Assembly (NCBI GenBank): GCA_902551155.1
Contig: CACDBG010000006.1
Span: forward strand, 1 to 49,641
Length of the DNA stretch: 49,641 nucleotides
Direction of reading: 5' to 3'
Source of the DNA: an uncultured Verrucomicrobiota bacterium
GTDB taxonomy: Bacteria; Verrucomicrobiota; Verrucomicrobiia; Limisphaerales; UBA1100
Shown piece by piece: positions 23,577 to 49,641 of this stretch (the first letter of the stretch is position 1; the number at the start of each line of letters is the position of its first letter). Both the position numbers and the translations under genes were made by a program. Below the pieces are notes generated by a model. The model made no database searches, was not told the DNA's origin, and saw nothing but the letters and a program-made list of their open reading frames with translations.

Positions 23577-26500
23577 CTACTGCTTCGGTGGCTTGGCCTC
23601 GCGGATAATGGCACCGTGTTCGTCATTCAATATCAGGATTGCAAAGGATTGCACGGTGTCCAATTCGCCCGTATTCAGGCTTACGTAATCAAAGCGGCCA
23701 CGCAGGTCGGTATAACCGTCCTTATAGAAGCGTACCTGACCATTGGCGAGTTTCCCGTAAACCTTCACGTAAGTCTTGGGTAATGACTTGCCCTTAGCCT
23801 GATCGGTAACACGCACCTGACCATAGTTCTCAACCATCTGCACCGCGAGCGTATTGGCATAGTAGGCCTGACTTTTACGAATGCCTTTAGCCACTATCTC
23901 CACCATTACATTACTGCTATGGAATTTTTCAGGAATGACAAAGGTGTGTGCGGTTTTCTTATCCGGCAGCTCCACAGTCTCAACAGTGTTGGGCACGATG
24001 TAAGTGAAGTGATCGGTATCCTCCTTCATGAAGGGTTTACGACTAAAGAGCAGCTCCACATCCATGGGGTAGTAGTTAACCGTGATATCCTTCAAGTTCT
24101 GGTAGCTAAGCTGTACTTGCCGATCCTCCACCTTGAATTCGAAACTGGCCTGCGTTGAAGCCAGCTGATCCTGCTTCTGGCCCCGGTCCTCCTTGTCTAC
24201 CAAAACGCCCTCCTTACCCTCTATTTCATCAAGCTGGCTACTGGCTGTGGCGAATAGGTTGCGCCATTTGTCCACCGGATGATCAGCATGGGCGGTGGCT
24301 AATTGGCGCGCCTTCTTCAGGTCACCCTGGTAAAAGGCGAGATAGAGCCCAAGATAATCATGTTGCAATTTCTCGGTAAGCTTGTCAGCGGACACGCGCC
24401 TGTGGAAAGCGATGGCATCCTCCACGCGATCCTGCAAGAGCAGGTAATAGGTAAGGCCCAAGAGATCGTTATTGGGAATCTCCTTATGGTATTTGAGCGT
24501 GGCTAACAGACTGTTGTACTGGGCCCAAAAAGCATCATTAAGAATCTTACGCGTCTTACCCAGCTGATGGGCACGTGCATTAACCAAGGGCTTATATTCA
24601 AGATGCTGATACCACTTGCGCCCAACCGGATCGACCGAAAGGATTGGGCTCTCAAAGTAAAAACCCACCCGGCCGGCCATTGGCGAACGCTCAAGATAAT
24701 CACTCATGCGCTCCTCATCCTGATGGTAGAGGGCATAACTCCATAAGGTGTGGTGATAGGTGAAACGTTCATCCAAAAGCTTCATCACCCGATTATAAAA
24801 ATCACGCCCACCGCCGCCCTCGACCTCATGGCGCAGACGAAACGCAATAAGGTTAAGATCGGTCCGGTTGAGGTTATGGTCGCGCAAATACTTGAGTACA
24901 TCCTTCTCCGTACCGTTCTGCGAAATCCATCCCCATGAGCTCTTGTCTTTCTTACTCAATTCATTAACAACCTGAAAACTGAAGTCATCGGCTGCAGCCA
25001 CGTGGCCATTGGGATTAGCCACCTGCACCGGATAAATGGCAAACTTGCCTGCTTCAGGGAAATAGAAGTAATAATCAAAGGTAGTGGTGGAGTAAGGCCC
25101 CAGCTTTGTGGAGCGCCCCTTGGAGTAGTTTCCATTTTGCAAGGGGATGGCACCTTCGGGCACCTGCACCAAAAGTTCAAACTTCTGTGGAGAAGAAGTT
25201 GGATTGGTGATCACTACCTGACACCCGTAGGCAATTTGCTTAAGAAATTCATCCTCCACAAAATTATCCAACCGTTCATTCCCCGCATGGCGATATCGCG
25301 AATCGGCGCGGAAAAAGTTTTGGCTCAGTAAAATCTTCGGTCCCTTCTTCACCGGTGCACTCGGCAAAATTTCCTGATGACAAACCACCATGTGCTCACC
25401 AGCAGTTAGCTGAAAGGAACGATCCATTGTCTCAGCCACGTGCTTGGGTTCCTCAAAAGGTAGATCAATCACTGCCAAAGCGAACATCATCTCTGCAAAA
25501 TTGCTGGTGGCATATATGAAATTACCGCTAAAGAATGGCTGGTTTGCAGGGCTGGCTGCGTAGTCATTCCAAAAGGCGTTCACCCGCATGAGGTCGGCAT
25601 TCTGCTGGGCAATAGTAAGCTTGTAATAATTATTCTCAGCCCACTCCTTGGCGGCAGGCAGCTTGCGGAATAATTGACGAACCTCTTGGCGCTTCTTTGA
25701 AGTATCCGCAAAGAAATTATTTCTGCCCTTAAATTGCTGCTCATATTGGGCTTCTCCTTCCTTTAAGCCTAAAGAATGGTCGAATGCGCGCTTAGCTTCT
25801 AAATCACCTCTTAAATCATTCAGTTCCTCCTTTGCATTTTTAGCGGCCTGTCTGCTACTGGCCTTATTTCCTGAAAATCTGGATACAGTCGAGGAGGTTG
25901 GACGAGGAGGTGCAGGCGGTGCGCCGGGCGCATTGGCATTAAACCCTCCACCCCCGATGCCACCAGTCATGGCTGCTCCGTCATCTTTTTGTGCTTGTTG
26001 AGATGAGCTGTTAATATTGGTTAACCTGCTGAGCTCGGCCTGAAACTGATTCAGTGCATTTGCTTTACCCAGCTTGATGCCCAGCTTGTCGTTATCGGCT
26101 TCGAGTTGTGAATTCATAATAGCCGCATCAAACAAACGGCTGTAACGCTCTGGGTTTGGAATAATTAGGTCATTCTTATCCTTAATATAGCGGCGCATCT
26201 TTTCCAACTCTGCGGGACCACGGCGGGCTAAAAGGATTTTCTCCACGTCATTAAGCTGGGAGAAAGCAAAGGGTTCCAGATACTTTTCAAGGTTTGCGCC
26301 CAGCAACCACTCGTCCATGAAAGTTTTATCCTTCTTATTGGCAAGGTAGGGTTTAACGACCTCGTTAAAGAATCCCAGATCCTTCTGGTGAAGGAAAAAG
26401 TTCAGCTCGTGGCAGGCGTACTTGGAATATTTTTCACGACGGTCCTTTGCCTTGAGTTTTGGCCATTCAAGAATCCAGCTGAATTCAGTCAACGTTTTGT

Positions 26501-29500
26501 TGTTACTCAGGGTAGCCATGAGCAGATACGCCTTCTGCAGAGAGTCATAGAGCTTCACATCACTGGTGGTGATATCCTGCACCTTCAATTGATCGCCCTT
26601 CTTTAGGACCGTGAAAAGTTTCTGCTCTGAATGTGCCTTGGCCACATCCAAACTTTGCACCATGCGCACCTCGCGCTTGACCAACACGGTGGATTTAATG
26701 GGCACAGGCAGGGTAACTGTATTTAAGGGGTCCACCGCCACCAGTAACATCTCCTGCTGACCCTTAAATTTGGTTAGATCAATGGATACCACGCCATCCT
26801 TGTCGGGCTTCAAATTGGCCAGCAATTCGGAGTTGTTTTTCAAAAAATCAAGACTAGAGAAATCGTTAAGCCCACCACTTGCAGAGGGCTCCGCAGGCTT
26901 TCGATACCAGGCCCCCTCCTTGGCCTCCTCTAATCTCTCGGCCAGATCCTCAAATTCACCACCCTTGGCTGCATCCTGCCTTCCAGTGCTGGTTTCACGA
27001 ATAGCCCACGGGTTTAGGAGAAGGCCCGGTCTGGCAAGCATATTGCCGGGAAACTTGGTGGCATATTTACGATCAAGGATGTAGCGATATTCCTCACCGA
27101 TATCACGCTCCTGAACATACAGCGAACGTGGTCGCGCCAATCTTTTTGCTTCAGGTGAAGGCACCCCACCAATATCCAGTGATGCGTAAGCTGGGTAACG
27201 CTGGACAAAACGCGTAGCAAACACATGGACGCGGGTGAAGGGAGTGATATTCTCCAGTTGTACCACGGCGTTTTGCTGACCCACCATCACGTCACTAATC
27301 TGCAAGGGATGCAACACACGTTGTTCCAAAATGCGACTGGCACTCATTACGTGATGATCGCGCCTGTTGCCTTCGGTTATTCGTAAGGAAATGGTTTCAC
27401 CTGTTTCCTTCAGGTAAAGCGTGTAGTCGCCCACGGCCAAATCACTAATCTCCAGAAATCCGTTACGGAAAGTGCCGGCCTTGATGTGATTGCCTACCAC
27501 CGTTCCCTGACGTAATTCAAAAAGGCTATAACTGCCAGCTTTGGCAGCGTTATTGAGCGGGCCAGCCAAGGCCACCTGAATAGTCTCACCGGTGGCCGCA
27601 TGAATGATTGAGGGCTGAGCAATCTGCCCGTAACGATCACGTGAAATTTCCCAATGATAGGTTGAGCCATCACTACCGGTTGCCCTGATCCACTGGATAT
27701 CAGCCAAAACCCCAAGATCTACGCGCCCGGATGGATCGCTCTTGAGGCTTAGGCTATGGGAGCCCTTAAAATCGCGGTGCTTAAGTTGCACACTCACGGC
27801 ACGATCAGGTTTGACCTCACCATTCTTACCCAGAATATCGAGCACATAACCGCCATTAATGCGTGCTAGATGCACATTCTCCAGTTTGAGCGTTTTATCA
27901 ATCTGGTTGAGCTCAAAGGTCCCCTGATCCGTTAAGTCCTGTTTATTGCCTGCGGCCAAATTTTCGACTCGAGCCTTCAAGGTGAACTGCAGCTTCGCCA
28001 GCTTGTCTGGCACGGTAAATTCATGAATGAAAGCCTCCCCGTCCTTGATCTCACCCACCGGCAATTCCAACATCGTAGGCACGCCATCGCGACCGGTTGA
28101 AAGAATGACCAACCGCGGATCCTCCATGACCTTTAGGGAGATGGGGTTTCCATTAAGACGAAGGACGGGACGCACTACCAACTTCGCCTGTGCGCCGATA
28201 ACCAGTGCCTCACGGTCCACGTAGATTCCTGCGTCCAGAGAATAGGTTTCTTTCTGGTGAATAAAACTGGCTAGTGCACTAAAGTTGCCATTGCGTAAAA
28301 CGATTGTCTGGCGACCCGGCCTATTACTAAAAGGCACCACGATGAGACCATCCTCGTCTGCCTTATACTCGTTACCTGAAAGCCACAGGGTTGCCTGAGG
28401 GCAGGCCTTGTTATCCTCATCTAAAACCCTAAACTCATGACCTGCGGAGCCTGTGTCTTCCAGCACACGCAGGTTCCCCTTGCTGATGAGAGCCCGACTG
28501 CTACGGCCATTCCCAATAAATTCCACCACATAAACACCGCGCTTCTTGAGTTCTGGAAAATTGAAGTTTCGCTCGATACGCCGCAAGGGACGCTCATCAT
28601 AATTATAAGCCTGCTCACGCGTAGCTGCCAAACCATCCAAATTAATGGCGGTATTGACCGGATATAGATTGCGCGAATAAAAATTAAACGTATTGATTTC
28701 AAAAACACGAACAATCAACTTTCTCACGTTCTTAACGTTGACCTTCAAGGAAACCCCCTCGCTCGACTTGTAAAACACCTTATTTACCGGCGAAAAATCC
28801 AAATCGATTCGTTCCTGCAACGCCTTAACTTGTGATGTGGAAAGCATGGAGTACCAGCGCTCGGCATCCCCAATGCCACTAACCAGCTTAGCCTCAGCAA
28901 AAGCCTGTTTCAAATAGGTATCCCTTACCAAGGGCAGGTATTGATCAAAATTGGCATCCTGCCTGAAGAAATGCAGAAAGAAATCGCGCACCAAACGTTC
29001 ATCGGGACCAATGGGCGACAAGCCTGTAATTCGACTATAATCGGCATTAAGGTTTACATCGGAAATCCCCGGGCTCTTGAGCTGCGCCTCGCGATACTTC
29101 GGGTTGATATACGCCACCGGCCGCGGCAGTTTCAGGTATTCCATGAATAATTCACGGTTATACTCACCCTGACTACACTGAAAACGCAGCAGGTTATAGA
29201 TTGCATTGGCTTTGAGGGAATTATGAGCCGCAGCCAGACGCGTGGTAAACTGATGAATACGGTTGAGGTGCTTACCGCGCTCAATGAGGTTAAAGCGCGT
29301 ATCCGTATCTTCTGAAGGGGCGAGCTTGGTCAGGTAGGTGTTTATGAAATTGGAGTTGTTGATGAGGTTCGGCTCCAGCTGTAAAAGCTCGTCCATTTGC
29401 ACCTTGGTCAACTGCCGGTGGATATTATGTGAGCCAAACCCACGGCTGTGCTTATTACGCAAATCCTTAACGATTAACTGAGGTAGATTCGCTATATCTG

Positions 29501-30050
29501 GCCGTTGTAACCGTGAGAGTAGATGGCGCAGTCGTGTGGCATTCAGTTTATCGTGATCCAATTTCTCCAGACCGCGTCCCTCCACGCCTGACAAATCTCC
29601 GGACCGAAAAGCGCGAGCCAAATACGCATCAAAACTGATCTGCTTTGGATCCAGAGCAGTCGGATGCTTCGGCTTTTGGCCTTCAATAACCCGACTATGG
29701 CTAAAGGAAAGACCCAGTTCACGCCGGAGGTGCGCCAGTGTTGCTTCCGGATTGGCTCCATAATCCAAAAGCGCCTGCCGATCCTGAATCTCCCTTACTT
29801 GCGCTGTGCGCCCATGGCGTTTGATCCATAATTCAAGGTGTTTTTTGACCGTCCCCTTATCTCCGCGTAACTGCGCGTCCAAACAGTGGTAATAATAATA
29901 GTCAGGTGTGCCCGGGATGAGCAGCTTAAGAGCCTCCTTGCGATCCGCGGATAACGCAAATTTTTCGACGAATCCTATATCTATGCCCTGAGCCACCCAG
30001 CCCAGCAGAATTACCAGCGATAAAGAGAGAGTCCGTGTCGATGTTTTCAT
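23577..30050 (-). CDS. Giant secreted MG-domain-like protein (about 2157 residues)
   Basis: 2157 residues from the ATG at 30050, chosen because a Sec signal peptide (MKTSTRTLSLSLVILLGWVAQG) begins there; the frame runs to 30083. The first 420 residues are helix-rich. From about 430 come beta-sandwich segments that look like alpha-2-macroglobulin MG domains (KVNVKNVRKLIVRVFEIN, VVRPVLRLNG). A Gly/Pro linker (GGIGGGGFNANAPG, APPAPPRP) near 1365-1390 divides the protein. The C-terminal half has a helical TPR-like region (about 1850-1910) and ends in a segment on a GQVRFYKDGYTDLRGRFDY theme. No thioester CxEQ motif is present by eye, so this is not a classical thioester macroglobulin. It heads a run with a sulfatase and an S41 protease. 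Function unknown. Confidence 0.8.
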   Translation of the reverse strand: MKTSTRTLSLSLVILLGWVAQGIDIGFVEKFALSADRKEALKLLIPGTPDYYYYHCLDAQLRGDKGTVKKHLELWIKRHGRTAQVREIQDRQALLDYGANPEATLAHLRRELGLSFSHSRVIEGQKPKHPTALDPKQISFDAYLARAFRSGDLSGVEGRGLEKLDHDKLNATRLRHLLSRLQRPDIANLPQLIVKDLRNKHSRGFGSHNIHRQLTKVQMDELLQLEPNLINNSNFINTYLTKLAPSEDTDTRFNLIERGKHLNRIHQFTTRLAAAHNSLKANAIYNLLRFQCSQGEYNRELFMEYLKLPRPVAYINPKYREAQLKSPGISDVNLNADYSRITGLSPIGPDERLVRDFFLHFFRQDANFDQYLPLVRDTYLKQAFAEAKLVSGIGDAERWYSMLSTSQVKALQERIDLDFSPVNKVFYKSSEGVSLKVNVKNVRKLIVRVFEINTFNFYSRNLYPVNTAINLDGLAATREQAYNYDERPLRRIERNFNFPELKKRGVYVVEFIGNGRSSRALISKGNLRVLEDTGSAGHEFRVLDEDNKACPQATLWLSGNEYKADEDGLIVVPFSNRPGRQTIVLRNGNFSALASFIHQKETYSLDAGIYVDREALVIGAQAKLVVRPVLRLNGNPISLKVMEDPRLVILSTGRDGVPTMLELPVGEIKDGEAFIHEFTVPDKLAKLQFTLKARVENLAAGNKQDLTDQGTFELNQIDKTLKLENVHLARINGGYVLDILGKNGEVKPDRAVSVQLKHRDFKGSHSLSLKSDPSGRVDLGVLADIQWIRATGSDGSTYHWEISRDRYGQIAQPSIIHAATGETIQVALAGPLNNAAKAGSYSLFELRQGTVVGNHIKAGTFRNGFLEISDLAVGDYTLYLKETGETISLRITEGNRRDHHVMSASRILEQRVLHPLQISDVMVGQQNAVVQLENITPFTRVHVFATRFVQRYPAYASLDIGGVPSPEAKRLARPRSLYVQERDIGEEYRYILDRKYATKFPGNMLARPGLLLNPWAIRETSTGRQDAAKGGEFEDLAERLEEAKEGAWYRKPAEPSASGGLNDFSSLDFLKNNSELLANLKPDKDGVVSIDLTKFKGQQEMLLVAVDPLNTVTLPVPIKSTVLVKREVRMVQSLDVAKAHSEQKLFTVLKKGDQLKVQDITTSDVKLYDSLQKAYLLMATLSNNKTLTEFSWILEWPKLKAKDRREKYSKYACHELNFFLHQKDLGFFNEVVKPYLANKKDKTFMDEWLLGANLEKYLEPFAFSQLNDVEKILLARRGPAELEKMRRYIKDKNDLIIPNPERYSRLFDAAIMNSQLEADNDKLGIKLGKANALNQFQAELSRLTNINSSSQQAQKDDGAAMTGGIGGGGFNANAPGAPPAPPRPTSSTVSRFSGNKASSRQAAKNAKEELNDLRGDLEAKRAFDHSLGLKEGEAQYEQQFKGRNNFFADTSKKRQEVRQLFRKLPAAKEWAENNYYKLTIAQQNADLMRVNAFWNDYAASPANQPFFSGNFIYATSNFAEMMFALAVIDLPFEEPKHVAETMDRSFQLTAGEHMVVCHQEILPSAPVKKGPKILLSQNFFRADSRYRHAGNERLDNFVEDEFLKQIAYGCQVVITNPTSSPQKFELLVQVPEGAIPLQNGNYSKGRSTKLGPYSTTTFDYYFYFPEAGKFAIYPVQVANPNGHVAAADDFSFQVVNELSKKDKSSWGWISQNGTEKDVLKYLRDHNLNRTDLNLIAFRLRHEVEGGGGRDFYNRVMKLLDERFTYHHTLWSYALYHQDEERMSDYLERSPMAGRVGFYFESPILSVDPVGRKWYQHLEYKPLVNARAHQLGKTRKILNDAFWAQYNSLLATLKYHKEIPNNDLLGLTYYLLLQDRVEDAIAFHRRVSADKLTEKLQHDYLGLYLAFYQGDLKKARQLATAHADHPVDKWRNLFATASSQLDEIEGKEGVLVDKEDRGQKQDQLASTQASFEFKVEDRQVQLSYQNLKDITVNYYPMDVELLFSRKPFMKEDTDHFTYIVPNTVETVELPDKKTAHTFVIPEKFHSSNVMVEIVAKGIRKSQAYYANTLAVQMVENYGQVRVTDQAKGKSLPKTYVKVYGKLANGQVRFYKDGYTDLRGRFDYVSLNTGELDTVQSFAILILNDEHGAIIREAKPPKQ

Positions 30051-30213
30051 GATACTCAATTTACTCAAAATAAAATGCCTCACGGGAGCCTCAGTAGGAC
30101 CCGTCCATTATTAGACGGTAAATTGACCAAATTGCCCCGCTTCAAAATCTATGGTACTCGCCCATCACACTTACACCACTGCAAAATAATTCAAAATCTG
30201 TTAACCTTTTCAC

Positions 30214-43443: not shown

Positions 43444-45666
43444 GTGCGTTACCTATTATTTACCGCAACTGCACTAACACTGACTTCCCTTGCCTTAGCG
43501 CAACCTGCTGAAGGGCCTTTTTCGGGAGGACGTTTCTTGCCGCCGATCGACCCATTAATTCAAAAGCTCGACGCCAACAGCGATGGTCAAATCTCAGCTG
43601 AAGAAATTGCACAAGCCCACGAAGCCCTTAAAGCACTTGATTTAAATAAAGACGGCCAGTTGACCTTCGAGGAATTGAGACCAAATTTTCCGGGAAGCAG
43701 ACCCGGTTCCGGTGGATCGGGAGGAATGGGGCCGAATCGCACGGAACAAAAACTCACCGAAAAATTTGACCTGGATAAAAACGGATACCTGGACCCAACC
43801 GAACGTCAGGAAGCCCTAAAGGTAGTTCAGGCTGGTGGACGTCCTGGAGGACCTCCGGGAAGGCGACCCAGAGGAGGCCAATCCTTGGAAGGCAGACCGG
43901 GACCGAAGGTTTCCCCTGAAGACGTGAAAAATTACCCCGAGGCAGAACTTTATGACCCGTCTGTATTACGCACAGTCTTCATCGATTTTGACACGGAAAC
44001 CTGGGAGGAGGATATGGCCAAGTTCAAGTACACCGATGTCGAAATGCCAGCAACTGTCACTGTCGATGGCCAAAAGTATCCGATGGTGGGAGTTAAATTT
44101 CGTGGTCAGTCCTCCTTTGGACATGTTCCCTCAGGATCAAAGCGTTCCCTGAATCTCTCAATGGACTTTATCAATCGCGATCAACGCCTCCACGGTTTCA
44201 AGACTATCAACCTATTAAACTGCAACGGGGATACTTCCTTTCTTAGCAGCATTTTGTATTCGCATCTAGCCGCTGACTATCTACCTGCGCCCAAGGCGAA
44301 CATCATGAAAGTGGTTATCAATGGTGAAAGCTGGGGCGTTTACTCCAATGTTCAACAATTCAACAAGGATTTCTTAAAGGAATTTTATGGCACTACGGCC
44401 GGGGCACGATGGAAAGTTTCCGGTAGTCCCCAGGCAGATGGGGGGCTTCGTTATTTAGGTGAGGACATAGCCCCCTATCGTCAACGATTTGAAATCAAGT
44501 CAAAGGACAGGGAGGATTCTTGGAAAGCCCTGATTAATCTCTGCAAAGTACTCAACGAAACGCCACTCAAGGATTTGCCCAAAGCCATTGAACCACTCCT
44601 AAATGTGGACCAGGTTTTGCGGTTCCTGGCTATTGATGTTGCGGTAGTCAATAGTGACGGTTACTGGGTCCGTGCCAGTGACTATAGTATCTACCTTGAT
44701 ACCTCCGGAATGTTCCACATTATCCCACACGATATGAATGAAGCTTTTCGGAGTGGAGGCCCTCCGAGAGGTGGACCTCCCAGGGGAGGATTTGGACGAG
44801 CTGGCAGCCCTCGAGGCGGTCATGGACATGGAGGGCCTACTCTTGACCCCTTGGTTGGAATAGAAAATGAAAGGATGCCTCTGCGTAGCAGATTGCTGGC
44901 AGTACCACAGTACCGAACGCGTTATCTCCAGTACATCCGTACCCTCGCAGAAAAAGACCTGACCCACAGAAATCTCTCGCCGTTAATCGCCCACTACCGC
45001 GAACTGATTGGGGATGAGGTGAAAATTGACACCCGCAAAAGGACTCCGTATGAAAGCTTTACTCAGGCCACATCTCCACTCCAGGAAAACGGGGCAGCTC
45101 CCGAGGGAAGTCTCAATGACTTTATCGAAAAGCGCCGTAATTTTCTGATGGCCCACGCAGAAATCAAAGATCTTGATGTAATTGATTTTGAAAAACCGAT
45201 TCTCCCCAAACAACCCACCCTGAAGAGAAACACAAAGATCACCGTAGCCATCAGCGAATTCCTCGCCTCCAACCAACGAACCAACAAGGATCCTCAAGGA
45301 GAATTTGAAGACTGGATTGAGTTATTCAACCACGGGAATACCGATATCGAACTATCGGGCATGTACCTGAGTGATGACAAAGATAACCTGTTTAAATGGA
45401 AAATCCCATCCGGGACAATAATCAAAGCGAGGGGTTATCTAATCATCTGGGCCGATGAAGATGAAGGCGATGAAGGGCTACACGCAAATTTCAAGCTATC
45501 CAAAGGCGGCGAAATAATTTCCCTCATCAAGGATAACACCATCGTGGATCAAATAGAGTTTGGCCCTCAGGTATCAGAAGTTTCCAGTGGTCGACTCGCC
45601 GGACACACGGGAAAATTGGAAAAATTGAGCCCGACCCCTGGCACCTCCAACCGAACCTATAAATAA
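43444..45666 (+). CDS. Secreted CotH-family kinase-like protein with EF-hands and a lamin-tail domain
   Basis: 740 residues from a GTG at 43444; an in-frame stop at 43432-43434 and no ATG before the signal peptide force this start. Signal peptide 1-19. Three EF-hand loops lie at 43-54 (DANSDGQISAEE), 66-77 (DLNKDGQLTFEE) and 109-120 (DLDKNGYLDPTE), then a Gly/Arg/Pro-rich linker. The CotH domain runs about 165-545: FRGQSSFGH, KRSLNLSMDF, GFKTINLLNC, WGVYSNVQQFN and IIPHDMNEAF, where the Asp is the candidate metal-binding residue. A Gly/Arg/Pro insert (about 438-470) follows directly. A lamin-tail domain spans 595-735 (ISEFLASNQ, GEFEDWIELFN). CotH proteins are atypical kinases; this activity is inferred. 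Confidence 0.92.
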   Translation: MRYLLFTATALTLTSLALAQPAEGPFSGGRFLPPIDPLIQKLDANSDGQISAEEIAQAHEALKALDLNKDGQLTFEELRPNFPGSRPGSGGSGGMGPNRTEQKLTEKFDLDKNGYLDPTERQEALKVVQAGGRPGGPPGRRPRGGQSLEGRPGPKVSPEDVKNYPEAELYDPSVLRTVFIDFDTETWEEDMAKFKYTDVEMPATVTVDGQKYPMVGVKFRGQSSFGHVPSGSKRSLNLSMDFINRDQRLHGFKTINLLNCNGDTSFLSSILYSHLAADYLPAPKANIMKVVINGESWGVYSNVQQFNKDFLKEFYGTTAGARWKVSGSPQADGGLRYLGEDIAPYRQRFEIKSKDREDSWKALINLCKVLNETPLKDLPKAIEPLLNVDQVLRFLAIDVAVVNSDGYWVRASDYSIYLDTSGMFHIIPHDMNEAFRSGGPPRGGPPRGGFGRAGSPRGGHGHGGPTLDPLVGIENERMPLRSRLLAVPQYRTRYLQYIRTLAEKDLTHRNLSPLIAHYRELIGDEVKIDTRKRTPYESFTQATSPLQENGAAPEGSLNDFIEKRRNFLMAHAEIKDLDVIDFEKPILPKQPTLKRNTKITVAISEFLASNQRTNKDPQGEFEDWIELFNHGNTDIELSGMYLSDDKDNLFKWKIPSGTIIKARGYLIIWADEDEGDEGLHANFKLSKGGEIISLIKDNTIVDQIEFGPQVSEVSSGRLAGHTGKLEKLSPTPGTSNRTYK

Positions 45667-45790
45667 ATTCTCACGTGTTCGGATTATTATTCTCATTTAA
45701 GTGACAAATCCTCGGTTTTTGATATAAACTGTTTACCGCACGTAACCTTTACGTAAATTTAGCCGTAAGTTAGCAAAGTTAATAAGATAT

Positions 45791-46594
45791 ATGACGAAAC
45801 TCATCCTCCATTTACTGTTTGCAGTTTTAATTACAATTGGTTTCCCCAACCAAGTATCGGCCGCAGAAAAGAACCTCAAAGCCAATAATCCTTCAGTAGA
45901 AAAAGGGTGGCTAGAGGGAGTAATGGACTCCTTCACCTCCCCGGAAGCCACAGATAGCTCTGTATGGGTCATGCTGGTGTACCTCATCATGGGAGGGTTA
46001 CTGGCTCTCTACATCCGATTCCTCTATCGACACTGCAATACATCGGTTTCGAATGCAGATTCAGTAGCGCGAATCTTCCCTTTACTCACCATGGTAACCG
46101 TCGGAGTCATCGCAGTTGTAAAATCATCGCTAGCACTTTCACTAGGACTGGTTGGTGCCCTTTCAATCGTCCGCTTCCGTGCCGCGATCAAGGACCCGGA
46201 GGAATTAGTCTATCTTTTTCTTTGCATTGGTATTGGTCTGGCTCTGGGTGCCGAACAACCTCTGTTGGCAATCGCCATTGTGGGAGTATCAACCGTGTTT
46301 GTTTTAGGAATCCACTTCACCACTGGAAAGAGCCGGCAACAGAATCTACTCTTAACCATCACCGGCGATGCCAACAAACACTTTGGAGATGATAAATCAG
46401 GAGTCATGAATGTGATTGAGCAACTAGTTGGCCGCTACACCTTGCAACGGTATGATTTGGAGGGAACCAGAGGGCAAGTCCGTATCGTAATCAACCAAAA
46501 GGGAGGCCAAGAAACAGCTCAATTAATTGAAAAATTGCGCACGCAACTGCCTGAGTGCGAGTTCTCATATGTCAATCTTGAGTCCACACTGTAG
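45791..46594 (+). CDS. DUF4956 integral membrane protein
   Basis: 267 residues. A signal-like helix (about 5-25) is followed by membrane helices at about 57-78 (VMLVYLIMGGLLALYIRFLY), 95-115, and two more in LVGALSIVRFRAAIKDPEELVYLFLCIGIGLALG and LLAIAIVGVSTVFVLGIHF. The motif SIVRFRAAIKDPEEL is the conserved DUF4956 signature. The C-terminal part from about 180 is soluble, likely cytoplasmic. DUF4956 proteins are found next to VTC-domain and CotH genes, as here, and may support polyphosphate or related phosphoryl chemistry; function is not established. It is 125 bp after the CotH gene and 15 bp before the VTC gene. Confidence 0.92.
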   Translation: MTKLILHLLFAVLITIGFPNQVSAAEKNLKANNPSVEKGWLEGVMDSFTSPEATDSSVWVMLVYLIMGGLLALYIRFLYRHCNTSVSNADSVARIFPLLTMVTVGVIAVVKSSLALSLGLVGALSIVRFRAAIKDPEELVYLFLCIGIGLALGAEQPLLAIAIVGVSTVFVLGIHFTTGKSRQQNLLLTITGDANKHFGDDKSGVMNVIEQLVGRYTLQRYDLEGTRGQVRIVINQKGGQETAQLIEKLRTQLPECEFSYVNLESTL

Positions 46595-46609
46595 ACCCCA
46601 AACGTGTTG

Positions 46610-47371
46610 ATGGTTCCTGATCAGAAAATTATTTCCGGCACATTTAATCTGGTGGGAGAAGATACAACCCGAAAGGATTTGGCCGTCCGCAGGGAAACAA
46701 AATACCTACTACCCCATGCAGACATAGGCAAACTCCGTAGCCTACTCAAGGGAAATACCAAACGCATCATCCACAACAAACCAGTATCAACAGTCCGTAG
46801 TATTTATTTTGATAATACATTACTATCAGATTGCCAAGCCAACTTAGATGGCATTAGTCACCGCAAGAAGGTCCGGCTGCGTTGGTATGACTCCCTAATG
46901 CCTGAGGAAGTTCTATTTTTTGAGATTAAGTGGCGAAACAACCGCGTCACGGGCAAACACCGTCTCGAACTGCAATCTCAGCAGAACCTGCGCAATCTCA
47001 GCTACTCACAAATCTATGACGGATTGATCGATATACTGCCCCCGCAACATATAGCGGACTTACTCAAGCGCAGTGACCCGGTAGTCATTGTGGAATATCA
47101 CCGCGAACATTTCATCTCAGCCGATGGCCTCCTTAGAGTCACCTTGGATTATAATCTCAAATTTTATGACCAAACCGGCAAACAATCCATCTCCACATCG
47201 TTCCCATTCCTGATGCATGATTTTTTGGTAATGGAAGTGAAAGGACCTGAGGAAACTCTTCAAGAAGTGAAGCAATTACTTCATCCTTTTGCACCCCGCA
47301 TGGGACCCTGCTCAAAGTATGTTCATGGCTGCTGCCAACTGGGATTGGTATCACCGAGAATATACCACTAA
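46610..47371 (+). CDS. VTC-domain protein (polyphosphate polymerase-like)
   Basis: 253 residues from the ATG at 46610; GTG (46604) and TTG (46607) precede it in frame. The VTC catalytic tunnel domain is recognisable: VRRETKYLLP, VRSIYFDNTLLSDCQANLDGI, RKKVRLRWYD, FEIKWRNNRVTGKHRLEL, VIVEYHREHF, LRVTLDYNL, FLVMEVKGP and the late SKYVHGCCQLG. Basic residues in RKKVRLRWY and acidic ones in FEIKW and VMEVK are the positions used in the yeast Vtc4 tunnel for polyphosphate and metal. The likely reaction is ATP-dependent polyphosphate synthesis at the membrane with the DUF4956 partner, inferred from the family. It is 12 bp upstream of the CotH-ankyrin gene. Confidence 0.92.
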   Translation: MVPDQKIISGTFNLVGEDTTRKDLAVRRETKYLLPHADIGKLRSLLKGNTKRIIHNKPVSTVRSIYFDNTLLSDCQANLDGISHRKKVRLRWYDSLMPEEVLFFEIKWRNNRVTGKHRLELQSQQNLRNLSYSQIYDGLIDILPPQHIADLLKRSDPVVIVEYHREHFISADGLLRVTLDYNLKFYDQTGKQSISTSFPFLMHDFLVMEVKGPEETLQEVKQLLHPFAPRMGPCSKYVHGCCQLGLVSPRIYH

Positions 47372-47383
47372 CCAAAAAACGAC

Positions 47384-49641
47384 ATGTCATCAGCTAATCC
47401 ATTGAAATATAAACCAAATTCTTCCCGACTCCTTCACAGTCTGGGGGATGGTGTTTACTTCTTGTTTCCTCTAATTCTAGCGTCAGGTCTCTGTCTATTG
47501 GGAGTTTACGCTCTAGATAAACAAGCAGAGATTGAGGATCAGGCCGAGTTAAACCTCTTCCCGACAAACAGGGTGCTGGAGGTAGAAATCACCTTGGAAG
47601 AGAATGACTGGGACACTATCCGTAATCAATCGCGCAATCTATTTGAGGCACTGGAAGCCAAGCGGAAAGATGGCCCAATTAAAGGGCCTTACACTTGGGT
47701 GACAGCCAAAGTGAAGATAGATGGAGAAGAATTCCCTGAGGTCGGCATACGCAAAAAAGGTTTTGTCGGATCACAAAACAAAAGCCGGCCATCACTTAAG
47801 ATTAAGCTCAACCATATCGACAAGCAGGCCCAACTAAGCGGCCTGAATATGCTTACCTTTAATAACAACCAGCAAGACATCAGCCTGATGAGTCAAGCGA
47901 TGGGTTACGCCCTATACAACGAGGCCGGCTCACCAGCTCCCCGTTGCGGTTATGCGCGAATTACCGTTAACGGCAAAAACCTAGGCGTTTATTCGCATGT
48001 AGAATCCTTACGAGAGCCGTTACTTAAACGAGAATTTGGGGATGACCGGGGAACTTTATATGAAGGAACGGTGGTAGACTTTTTTAAGGGATGGGATAAA
48101 GCCTTTGAAAAGAAAACCGGCAAAGACCGAATAGGTCGAGAAAAGATTAATGAACTCATTGATGTCCTTGAACAGGATGACTTAGACGATGTTGAAAAGG
48201 CAATTGGGAAATTAGTTGATCTTGATTCCTTCTATACCTTCTGGGCGGTCGAAGGATTGATCGGGTTCTGGGACGGGTATACAGCCAATTACAATAACTT
48301 TTTCGTATACCTAAACCCACGAACTGAAAAATTTCATTTCCTACCCTGGGGACTGGACTGTGGCTTTGAGAAATACAGTCAACTTCCTGGCGTTAGCAAA
48401 CGCGCCCCGCTTTCAGTCAAAACGAAAGGACGAGTAGCTTATCGGCTTTATCAGGTCGAATCCTGTCGAAAGCGCTATGAAAAAACCCTCAGAAAAATTC
48501 TTACTGATCATTGGAATGAAGATAAATTAATAGCTGAAACAGACCGCCGCTTTGCCATGCTTAAACCGTATCTAGCTCGAGAACAGGCGCGGAAATTCCA
48601 AGTTAAAGGAATACAGGATTTTATTCGTAACCGACGAAGTGACCTCACCAGGGAAATTGCCAGCGGTATGCCCATTTGGGCAGCTAAACCGGAACCTCCG
48701 ATAACCTTTCCGAGTTTTATGAAAATTTTTACGCCAAAGGATCAGAAGGGCAAAGAAGATGTCTGGATCGCATCAAAAAACGGCGACATAAACAGACTAA
48801 ATGAATTGACTGGTTTAGAAACCTACGTGAATGGCCAAAATATCTTTAGTGGAATCACTCCCATCTCGATGGCAGCCCTCAATGGAAAAACTGAAGCCGT
48901 TGCATTCCTTCTAAGCAAAGGCGCAAAAATCAACGGAAAGAGCCGCGATGGTGGAACCGCACTGCATGGCGCTGCGTTCCTTGGACATGCAGAAACAGTA
49001 AACCTTTTAATAAATAAGGGAGCCGACCTAAACATTCGCAATAATAAGGGCGAAACCCCCTTGGATAACTCCTCAGGTGAATGGAGCGATGGCCTGCAAG
49101 GTATTGTAGAGTTGGTCGCAGGGTTTTTGAAGATAGAAGTAAATATGGAAGAGGTTAAATCAGGCCGCCCTAAAGTTGCAGCAATCCTCCGAAAGCACGG
49201 AGGAAAACCGGGAGCATTAATTGCAAGACAGACAACAGCTAAAAATGACAATAAGGAAAAAGATATTTGGACAGCCGCCAAAAAAGGTAATCTTGACGCA
49301 GTAAAGACATTTCTAGAAAAGGGAATAAAGGTTAACAGCCTTGATCCAAGCGGCGTTACCCCACTTTCAATGACCGCACTAACTGGAGAAGTAGAAACTG
49401 CAAAGTATCTAATTAGCAAAGGGGCTGATGTAAATGTACAACACAAAGATGGAGCCACCCCCCTACACTTCGCAGCATTCTTCGGAGAAACTGAGATTGT
49501 AGAACTTCTCTTGGAGAATAATGCCGATATAAACACTCAAAACCACAAGGGGCAGACACCGTTGGATAATACTTCTGAAGATTGGAGCAAGGTTCAGTTT
49601 GCTATCGGATTGGTCGCCGGATTTTTCAAGGTTGATGTAGA
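47384..49641 (+). CDS. CotH kinase-like protein fused to ankyrin repeats (C-terminus beyond window)
   Basis: A frame open from the ATG at 47384 to the right edge encodes at least 752 residues. A single membrane anchor lies at about 24-46 (GVYFLFPLILASGLCLLGVYAL). The CotH domain covers about 65-430: RVLEVEITLEENDW, GIRKKGFVGSQNKSRPSLKIKL, LNMLTFNNNQQD, LGVYSHVESL and the candidate catalytic FLPWGLDCGF. From about 465 comes an ankyrin region: a first block (DVWIASKNGDINRL, GITPISMAAL, GGTALHGAAFLG, GETPLDNSSGEWS), a hinge on VAGFLKIEV, and a second block of near-identical layout (DIWTAAKKGNLDAV, GVTPLSMTAL, GATPLHFAAFFG, GQTPLDNTSEDWS). Ankyrin fusion to CotH is unusual. It is last of the cassette in the window. 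Confidence 0.88.
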   Translation, partial: MSSANPLKYKPNSSRLLHSLGDGVYFLFPLILASGLCLLGVYALDKQAEIEDQAELNLFPTNRVLEVEITLEENDWDTIRNQSRNLFEALEAKRKDGPIKGPYTWVTAKVKIDGEEFPEVGIRKKGFVGSQNKSRPSLKIKLNHIDKQAQLSGLNMLTFNNNQQDISLMSQAMGYALYNEAGSPAPRCGYARITVNGKNLGVYSHVESLREPLLKREFGDDRGTLYEGTVVDFFKGWDKAFEKKTGKDRIGREKINELIDVLEQDDLDDVEKAIGKLVDLDSFYTFWAVEGLIGFWDGYTANYNNFFVYLNPRTEKFHFLPWGLDCGFEKYSQLPGVSKRAPLSVKTKGRVAYRLYQVESCRKRYEKTLRKILTDHWNEDKLIAETDRRFAMLKPYLAREQARKFQVKGIQDFIRNRRSDLTREIASGMPIWAAKPEPPITFPSFMKIFTPKDQKGKEDVWIASKNGDINRLNELTGLETYVNGQNIFSGITPISMAALNGKTEAVAFLLSKGAKINGKSRDGGTALHGAAFLGHAETVNLLINKGADLNIRNNKGETPLDNSSGEWSDGLQGIVELVAGFLKIEVNMEEVKSGRPKVAAILRKHGGKPGALIARQTTAKNDNKEKDIWTAAKKGNLDAVKTFLEKGIKVNSLDPSGVTPLSMTALTGEVETAKYLISKGADVNVQHKDGATPLHFAAFFGETEIVELLLENNADINTQNHKGQTPLDNTSEDWSKVQFAIGLVAGFFKVDV
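48744..49641 (+). repeat. Duplicated ankyrin block within the CotH-ankyrin gene
   Basis: The protein segment starting GKEDVWIASKNGD (from about 48750) and that starting KEKDIWTAAKKGN (from about 49258) share order and motifs: ITPISMAAL and VTPLSMTAL, TALHGAAFLG and TPLHFAAFFG, PLDNSSGEWS and PLDNTSEDWS, VAGFLKIEV and VAGFFKVDV. Block length is about 508 bp (170 residues). The second block runs past the right edge. Confidence 0.85.

Follow-up and report, generated by a model that had tools for sequence, protein, structure and literature searches.

The window, by which we mean the whole stretch of DNA analysed, is a 49,641-nt contig from a 50%-complete MAG of the Verrucomicrobiota. It ends in a compact run of four genes, all on the plus strand. 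In order, they encode a secreted CotH-kinase protein (CotH1), a membrane protein of the DUF4956 family, a VTC domain protein and a membrane-anchored CotH protein with ankyrin repeats (CotH2). We propose that they form a membrane-spanning, polyphosphate-coupled module that would feed an extracytoplasmic pair of CotH proteins, one kinase-like and the other pseudokinase-like. The proposal is tentative, with a probability of about 0.4. The related records are Verrucomicrobiota MAGs and, going by the record names, at least some of them are marine.

Layout of the locus and its proteins

The intergenic gaps are 124 bp, 9 or 15 bp (by the VTC start chosen) and 12 bp. They bear out the 125, 15 and 12 bp given in a preliminary description, and the ORF coordinates and profile matches agree with its four genes and their domain content. 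It also described a secreted CotH1 with EF-hands and a lamin-tail domain, and an anchored CotH2 with ankyrins. Both are found, but it missed that CotH2 is truncated because the contig stops at 49641, inside this gene. The features are the following.

43444..45666, plus strand: CotH1, secreted CotH-kinase protein, 740 aa, GTG start, DxN-type active site (ORF, profiles, L066 orthologue)
43444..43503, plus strand: CotH1 signal peptide, MRYLLFTATALTLTSLALAQ (direct reading of the sequence)
43570..43803, plus strand: three EF-hand loops of CotH1, DANSDGQISAEE, DLNKDGQLTFEE and DLDKNGYLDPTE (EF-hand families and direct reading)
44092..45147, plus strand: CotH domain of CotH1 (profile)
44656..44658, plus strand: CotH1 Asp405 codon, equivalent of B. 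subtilis CotH Asp228, in VNSDGYW (alignment to 5jd9; PMC7821199)
44731..44733, plus strand: CotH1 Asp430 codon, equivalent of Asp251, in PHDMNEAF (alignment to 5jd9)
45235..45561, plus strand: lamin tail domain (LTD) of CotH1 (profile)
45791..46594, plus strand: DUF4956 protein, 267 aa, MgtC-like, with an N-terminal hydrophobic segment, five predicted membrane helices and a C-terminal ACT/ferredoxin-like domain (profile, hydropathy, fold and profile comparison)
46610..47371, plus strand: VTC domain protein, predicted cytosolic polyphosphate polymerase, ATG start with an alternative GTG at 46604 (profile, conserved residues)
47384..49641, plus strand: CotH2, membrane-anchored CotH with ankyrin repeats; 752 aa lie ahead of the contig end, which truncates it (ORF, profiles, L066 comparison)
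47459..47515, plus strand: CotH2 membrane helix, aa 26-44, basic before and acidic after, predicted N-in and C-out (hydropathy and direct reading)
47750..48637, plus strand: CotH domain of CotH2 (profile and predicted fold)
48272..48274, plus strand: CotH2 Asp297 codon, equivalent of Asp228, kept in FWDGY (alignment)
48350..48352, plus strand: CotH2 Gly323 codon at the DFG-like Asp251 position, in PWGLDCGF (alignment)
48770..49639, plus strand: CotH2 ankyrin repeats, an internally repeated block (profile and comparison)

The genes flanking the module encode a sulfatase, a TolB-like protein, an FG-GAP protein and an inositol oxygenase. No pel or polysaccharide genes are present in the flank at 38.3-43.2 kb; the opposite side is the contig end. 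Promoter and terminator scans scored no better than shuffled sequence. Further away in the window, a 2168-aa ORF occupies 23577-30083 on the minus strand.

The two CotH proteins score 132 and 136 bits against the PF08757 profile (cut-off 23.8). For CotH1, the profile E-values are 3.4e-38 (CotH), 3.5e-16 (LTD) and 1e-13 (EF-hand). It matches B. cereus CotH (5jd9) with an E-value of 1e-7, its fold being judged from sequence alone. The CotH2 profile E-values are 2.8e-39 (CotH) and 5.6e-38 (ankyrins). The structure model of CotH2 (pLDDT 83.7) aligns with 5jd9 over 336 residues at 2.3 A (Z 36.8), and its similarity to the Fam20 fold is weak (Z about 10). NCBIfam matches to effectors and XopAW were discarded as ankyrin and EF-hand cross-matches far under the cut-off. 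Two relatives of CotH1 (L219:484-2430 and L122:9124-11568) carry EF-hands in a Gly-rich loop just past the DFG-like motif, where an activation segment would lie.

The substitutions D228Q and D251A each inactivate the CotH of B. subtilis (PMC7821199). We mapped these positions through B. cereus CotH, where the NFDG Asp precedes the first PWDYD Asp by 23 residues; the numbering follows this spacing and not the B. subtilis sequence. CotH1 keeps both catalytic aspartates (VNSDG and PHDMN), and its Asp-x-Asn is a trait of the subfamily (23 readable motifs). CotH2 keeps the first (FWDG), but reads PWGLD at the second site. The same G-x-D is present in 10/10 aligned sequences of the CotH2 subfamily. 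It is also found in 24/24 readable motifs of a wider search over 30 further loci, in which seven rows were unreadable by pattern. The Gly at the Asp251 position makes two active kinases doubtful. So, the phosphorylation of two sets of targets suggested in the preliminary description cannot be assumed: CotH1 retains both of these residues, CotH2 only the Asp228 equivalent.

CotH2 is not a decaying pseudogene, with a dN/dS of 0.10 (purifying selection) and a Gly that is invariant across the subfamily. Nor are CotH1 and CotH2 recent duplicates, as they fall into separate clades of the tree. CotH2 is a conserved protein, perhaps a pseudokinase, a status that depends on one residue, or perhaps a protein in which the Asp at +2 takes over metal binding.

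The VTC protein matches PF09359 with an E-value of 1.6e-29 and is soluble by prediction, without a membrane helix. The tunnel residues (E-x-K, RLR, E-x-K and the C-terminal K) are present. Among 82 proteins, E31, K33, R91, R93, E107, K109, K118, R167, R178, D182, E211, K213 and K238 are 100% conserved, and K89, R87 and R120 are conserved at 97-98%. In yeast, joint change of R264/R266/E426 impairs Vtc4 (PMC9911596). Basic residues in Vtc4 replace the acidic patch of hydrolytic TTM proteins (PMC4641920). We read the window motifs R29-x-E31-x-K33 and E211-x-K213 as mostly polymerase-like, with one Glu retained, and the protein as a probable polyphosphate-making enzyme. In the open-licence papers searched, we found no report that a bacterial VTC of this kind is active, nor of transport by DUF4956.

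The DUF4956 protein matches PF16316 with an E-value of 9.3e-13 (48.7 bits, cut-off 30.6), and R128, F129, R130 and Y79 are invariant. It is related to MgtC in both the membrane region and the C-terminal domain: profile comparison with hhalign gives a probability of 98.1 and an E-value of 6.7e-14 over 203 columns, in one pairwise comparison of membrane proteins. The single-sequence Pfam match to MgtC is under the cut-off. The C-terminal domain is ACT-like, with Z 9.0 to the MgtC C-domain (2lqj), a value tied with many unrelated ferredoxin-like folds. For the membrane part, no structure matched over the full length in the fold search, where mainly residues 181-267 were compared. SIR_1592 of S. 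intermedius is also described as MgtC-like with an ACT domain (PMC12345266).

Conservation in the family and in a Planctomycetota MAG

The association of these genes is not random. In the same genus, the locus L066 (genome G301) has the same four genes in the same order, with CotH of 755 aa, DUF4956 of 270 aa, VTC of 254 aa and CotH-ankyrin of 784 aa. The four window proteins share 71-93% identity with it, and the tight spacing is conserved. CotH1 has its orthologue at L066:10098-12365 (90% amino acid identity). The CotH2 orthologue is complete there and extends about 28 residues beyond the window copy. The dN/dS between window and L066 is about 0.1 for CotH1, DUF4956 and CotH2. TolB-like and sulfatase flank genes are common to both. 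A third locus of the genus (L065, G300) is consistent with the four-gene order; its contig is cut at both ends.

Outside the genus the order varies. The sister genus (L067, L068) has DUF4956-VTC-CotH2, and its CotH2 contains one ankyrin block where that of the source genus contains two. In the sister-genus genome G293, a CotH1 homologue is found on a separate contig, which ends ahead of any lamin-tail domain. Two further genera of the family (L069-L071) show VTC-DUF4956-CotH, with a CotH of the CotH2 type. Thus, the four-gene order is kept in the congener, but we reject a fixed order more widely: only the VTC-DUF4956 pair, the core, is stable, and the position of CotH varies.

Between positions 46430 and 47560, the identity of window and L066 falls from about 0.90 to about 0.66 and then recovers. 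This 1.1-kb block runs across the C-domain of DUF4956, VTC and the anchor of CotH2. It could be an allele replacement by recombination or a random recombination tract. It fits a physical coupling of these three parts, and proves nothing.

Short peptide patterns, matched exactly, were used to scan 85,000 species for the window VTC and yielded five relatives. One belongs to a MAG named Planctomycetaceae (L215/L218), with the order DUF4956-VTC-CotH1 (EF-hand, CotH, LTD)-CotH2 (anchor, CotH, ankyrins). The two differently decorated CotH genes recur together with VTC and DUF4956 here as in L066. Identity to the window is 63% for DUF4956, 57% for VTC, 52% for CotH1 and 62% for CotH2. The planctomycete CotH1 groups with those of the window, L066 and G293 with a support of 99 (tree of 46 CotH1-type rows). 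We found no polysaccharide genes near this module in the stretch scanned.

Contamination of this contig is unlikely, since its ValS is closest to Planctomycetota. It shares 53-58% with the best-matched Planctomycetota and 46-50% with Verrucomicrobiota over the same N-terminal part, although two Planctomycetota are also at 46-50% and one at 28%. VTC of this kind is rare in the phylum, being present only in this MAG itself (G437) of 392 sampled genomes. The presence of all four genes in a Planctomycetota MAG, the planctomycetal ValS on the contig and the rarity of VTC there suggest that the set moved between phyla by horizontal transfer, as a mobile unit.

Partners of VTC across loci

We surveyed 82 VTC loci, in which strong matches and the own family are over-represented. 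A linked DUF4956 gene occurs in 68/82 of them (9/9 in the own family and 59/73 elsewhere). Among the 73 loci outside the family, an HlyD-type periplasmic adaptor (checked by Pfam) is the most frequent additional partner and accompanies VTC in 42, CotH in 10 and both in 2 (Fisher p 0.015, uncorrected for the relatedness of loci). The HlyD linkage is consistent with an export-like role and fits a physical coupling, without proving it. In most Verrucomicrobiota loci sampled (for example L073:4735-5838 and L088:9131-10201), an HlyD/RND-type periplasmic adaptor stands directly 3' of VTC-DUF4956 and suggests an export line. In L079, L082 and L097, from other families, a very large CotH of 1539 to 1795 aa lies upstream of VTC-DUF4956.

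CotH is present in 119/146 genomes of the source order, often in more than 10 copies, and this abundance required a chance estimate for its adjacency to VTC. By chance we estimate 0.4 to 1 loci, against 10/73 observed (for at least 9, the Poisson probability is about 1e-6 or below). Within the stretches seen, most CotH1-like and CotH2-like genes of the order do not adjoin VTC. Therefore, these classes also work without VTC, and we reject CotH subfamilies specific to VTC loci.

The same genome has a second module on another contig (L006:4160-8155, contig C4), with CotH, VTC and DUF4956 in another order. Its CotH is divergent, with His at 228 and Gly at 251. The surroundings are a low-GC (about 0.35) cluster for capsule or surface polysaccharide, including EpsG, Capsule_synth, a cytidylyltransferase and a UDP-GlcNAc epimerase.

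Possible function and relation to known systems

Sets of CotH, polyphosphate polymerase and DUF4956 are published beside Pel operons (PMC7112168, PMC12345266). A 2025 paper did not find the arrangement outside the Pel locus (PMC12345266). The loci described here, window included, are outside Pel loci as far as their flanks are seen. The accessory genes of the S. intermedius Pel locus (SIR_1592-1594) belong to the same three families, with an MgtC-like membrane protein carrying an ACT domain and a secreted CotH. Unlike them, the window has no Pel operon, and it has two CotH of different subfamilies, with ankyrins, EF-hands and a lamin-tail domain. In NELoc-2 of C. perfringens, CotH adjoins two VTC genes (PMC2879425); the gene content is otherwise different and lacks the dual CotH decoration.

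The polymerase shares its tunnel residues with the yeast VTC complex, in which Vtc4 works with a Vtc1/Vtc3 channel (PMC9911596), and here a membrane partner is encoded beside the polymerase. However, the window has no SPX and has separate polymerase and membrane genes, and its MgtC-like partner is without demonstrated homology to Vtc1. With the spore-coat kinase CotH of B. subtilis and B. cereus (5jd9, 5jda), the window proteins share the fold and Asp228, and CotH1 also Asp251. Unlike it, they are not spore proteins, CotH2 has Gly at 251, and both are predicted outside the cytoplasmic membrane.

In the module that we propose, VTC would make polyphosphate from ATP in the cytosol, as its conserved active site suggests. 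DUF4956 would be its membrane partner. By analogy with Vtc1/Vtc3, which do this for Vtc4, it may convey either the polyphosphate chain or a signal about that chain through the cytoplasmic membrane. Both CotH proteins would act outside this membrane, going by the signal peptide and the anchor. Of the two, CotH1 is probably the active kinase, to which the EF-hands may add Ca2+ control and the lamin-tail domain surface binding. CotH2 more probably serves as a scaffold or activator of the pseudokinase type, and its ankyrins may tether CotH1 or the targets of CotH1 to the membrane, much as Fam20A serves Fam20C. Fam20A and Fam20C are a pseudokinase and kinase pair of the secretory pathway. The likeness lies in the idea of an active extracytoplasmic kinase with an inactive partner and in the weak fold similarity; the family is another one, and a CotH1-CotH2 complex would be an analogy. 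One result counts against the coupling to polyphosphate: in S. intermedius, lower aggregation is reported for deletion of the DUF4956-type gene or of CotH but not of SIR_1593 (the polymerase), and the deletions do not evidently tie the polymerase to Pel levels either (PMC12345266).

Other readings account for part of these observations. The three families may control or phosphorylate an exopolysaccharide or its synthesis machinery, with proteins not the main target. Streptococci, clostridia and bifidobacteria have CotH, polyphosphate polymerase and DUF4956 beside their Pel operons (PMC7112168), deletion of SIR_1592 (DUF4956-type) or SIR_1594 (CotH) alters Pel levels as well as aggregation (PMC12345266), and the second module of this genome is in a polysaccharide island. 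However, neither the window module nor the planctomycete module has polysaccharide genes in the stretches seen, and we consider this reading possible but rather unlikely. The model of the preliminary description, two active kinases with their own targets in one polyphosphate-linked module, agrees with two conserved domains of complete CotH profile or fold and with their different accessory domains. It is improbable, as CotH2 lacks the equivalent of Asp251, needed in B. subtilis CotH.

We also doubt a role in phosphate or magnesium homeostasis, in which VTC-DUF4956 is a store or sensor, the CotH proteins are downstream reporters and the chain is not exported. The kinship of DUF4956 with MgtC, a protein that affects Salmonella phosphate and ATP homeostasis (as cited in PMC12345266), speaks for it, as does the ACT-like domain, which suggests ligand sensing; but the frequent linkage of a periplasmic adaptor and the secreted CotH point outward. 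Finally, a chance neighbourhood with no functional link is very improbable. The huge expansion of CotH in the order would favour it. Nevertheless, the same set appears in another phylum, CotH adjoins VTC far above expectation, and the tight spacing is conserved.

To our knowledge, kinase-like CotH proteins outside the cytoplasm are numerous in bacteria, but no phosphate donor is evident there. Beyond the cytoplasmic membrane ATP is scarce, and within the polyphosphate-coupled module CotH might there take its phosphoryl groups from the exported polyphosphate itself; we think this unlikely. If true, it would mean a polyphosphate-powered extracytoplasmic phosphorylation, with the HlyD adaptor of other loci as part of one and the same export line. 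The recurrent unit of a polymerase, an MgtC-like protein and paired CotH makes the donor question directly testable. It gives a physical context to DUF4956 and the bacterial VTC, and the association of CotH, VTC and DUF4956 is not confined to Pel loci. The unit suggests a link between polyphosphate and the modification of proteins or the surface outside the cell membrane.
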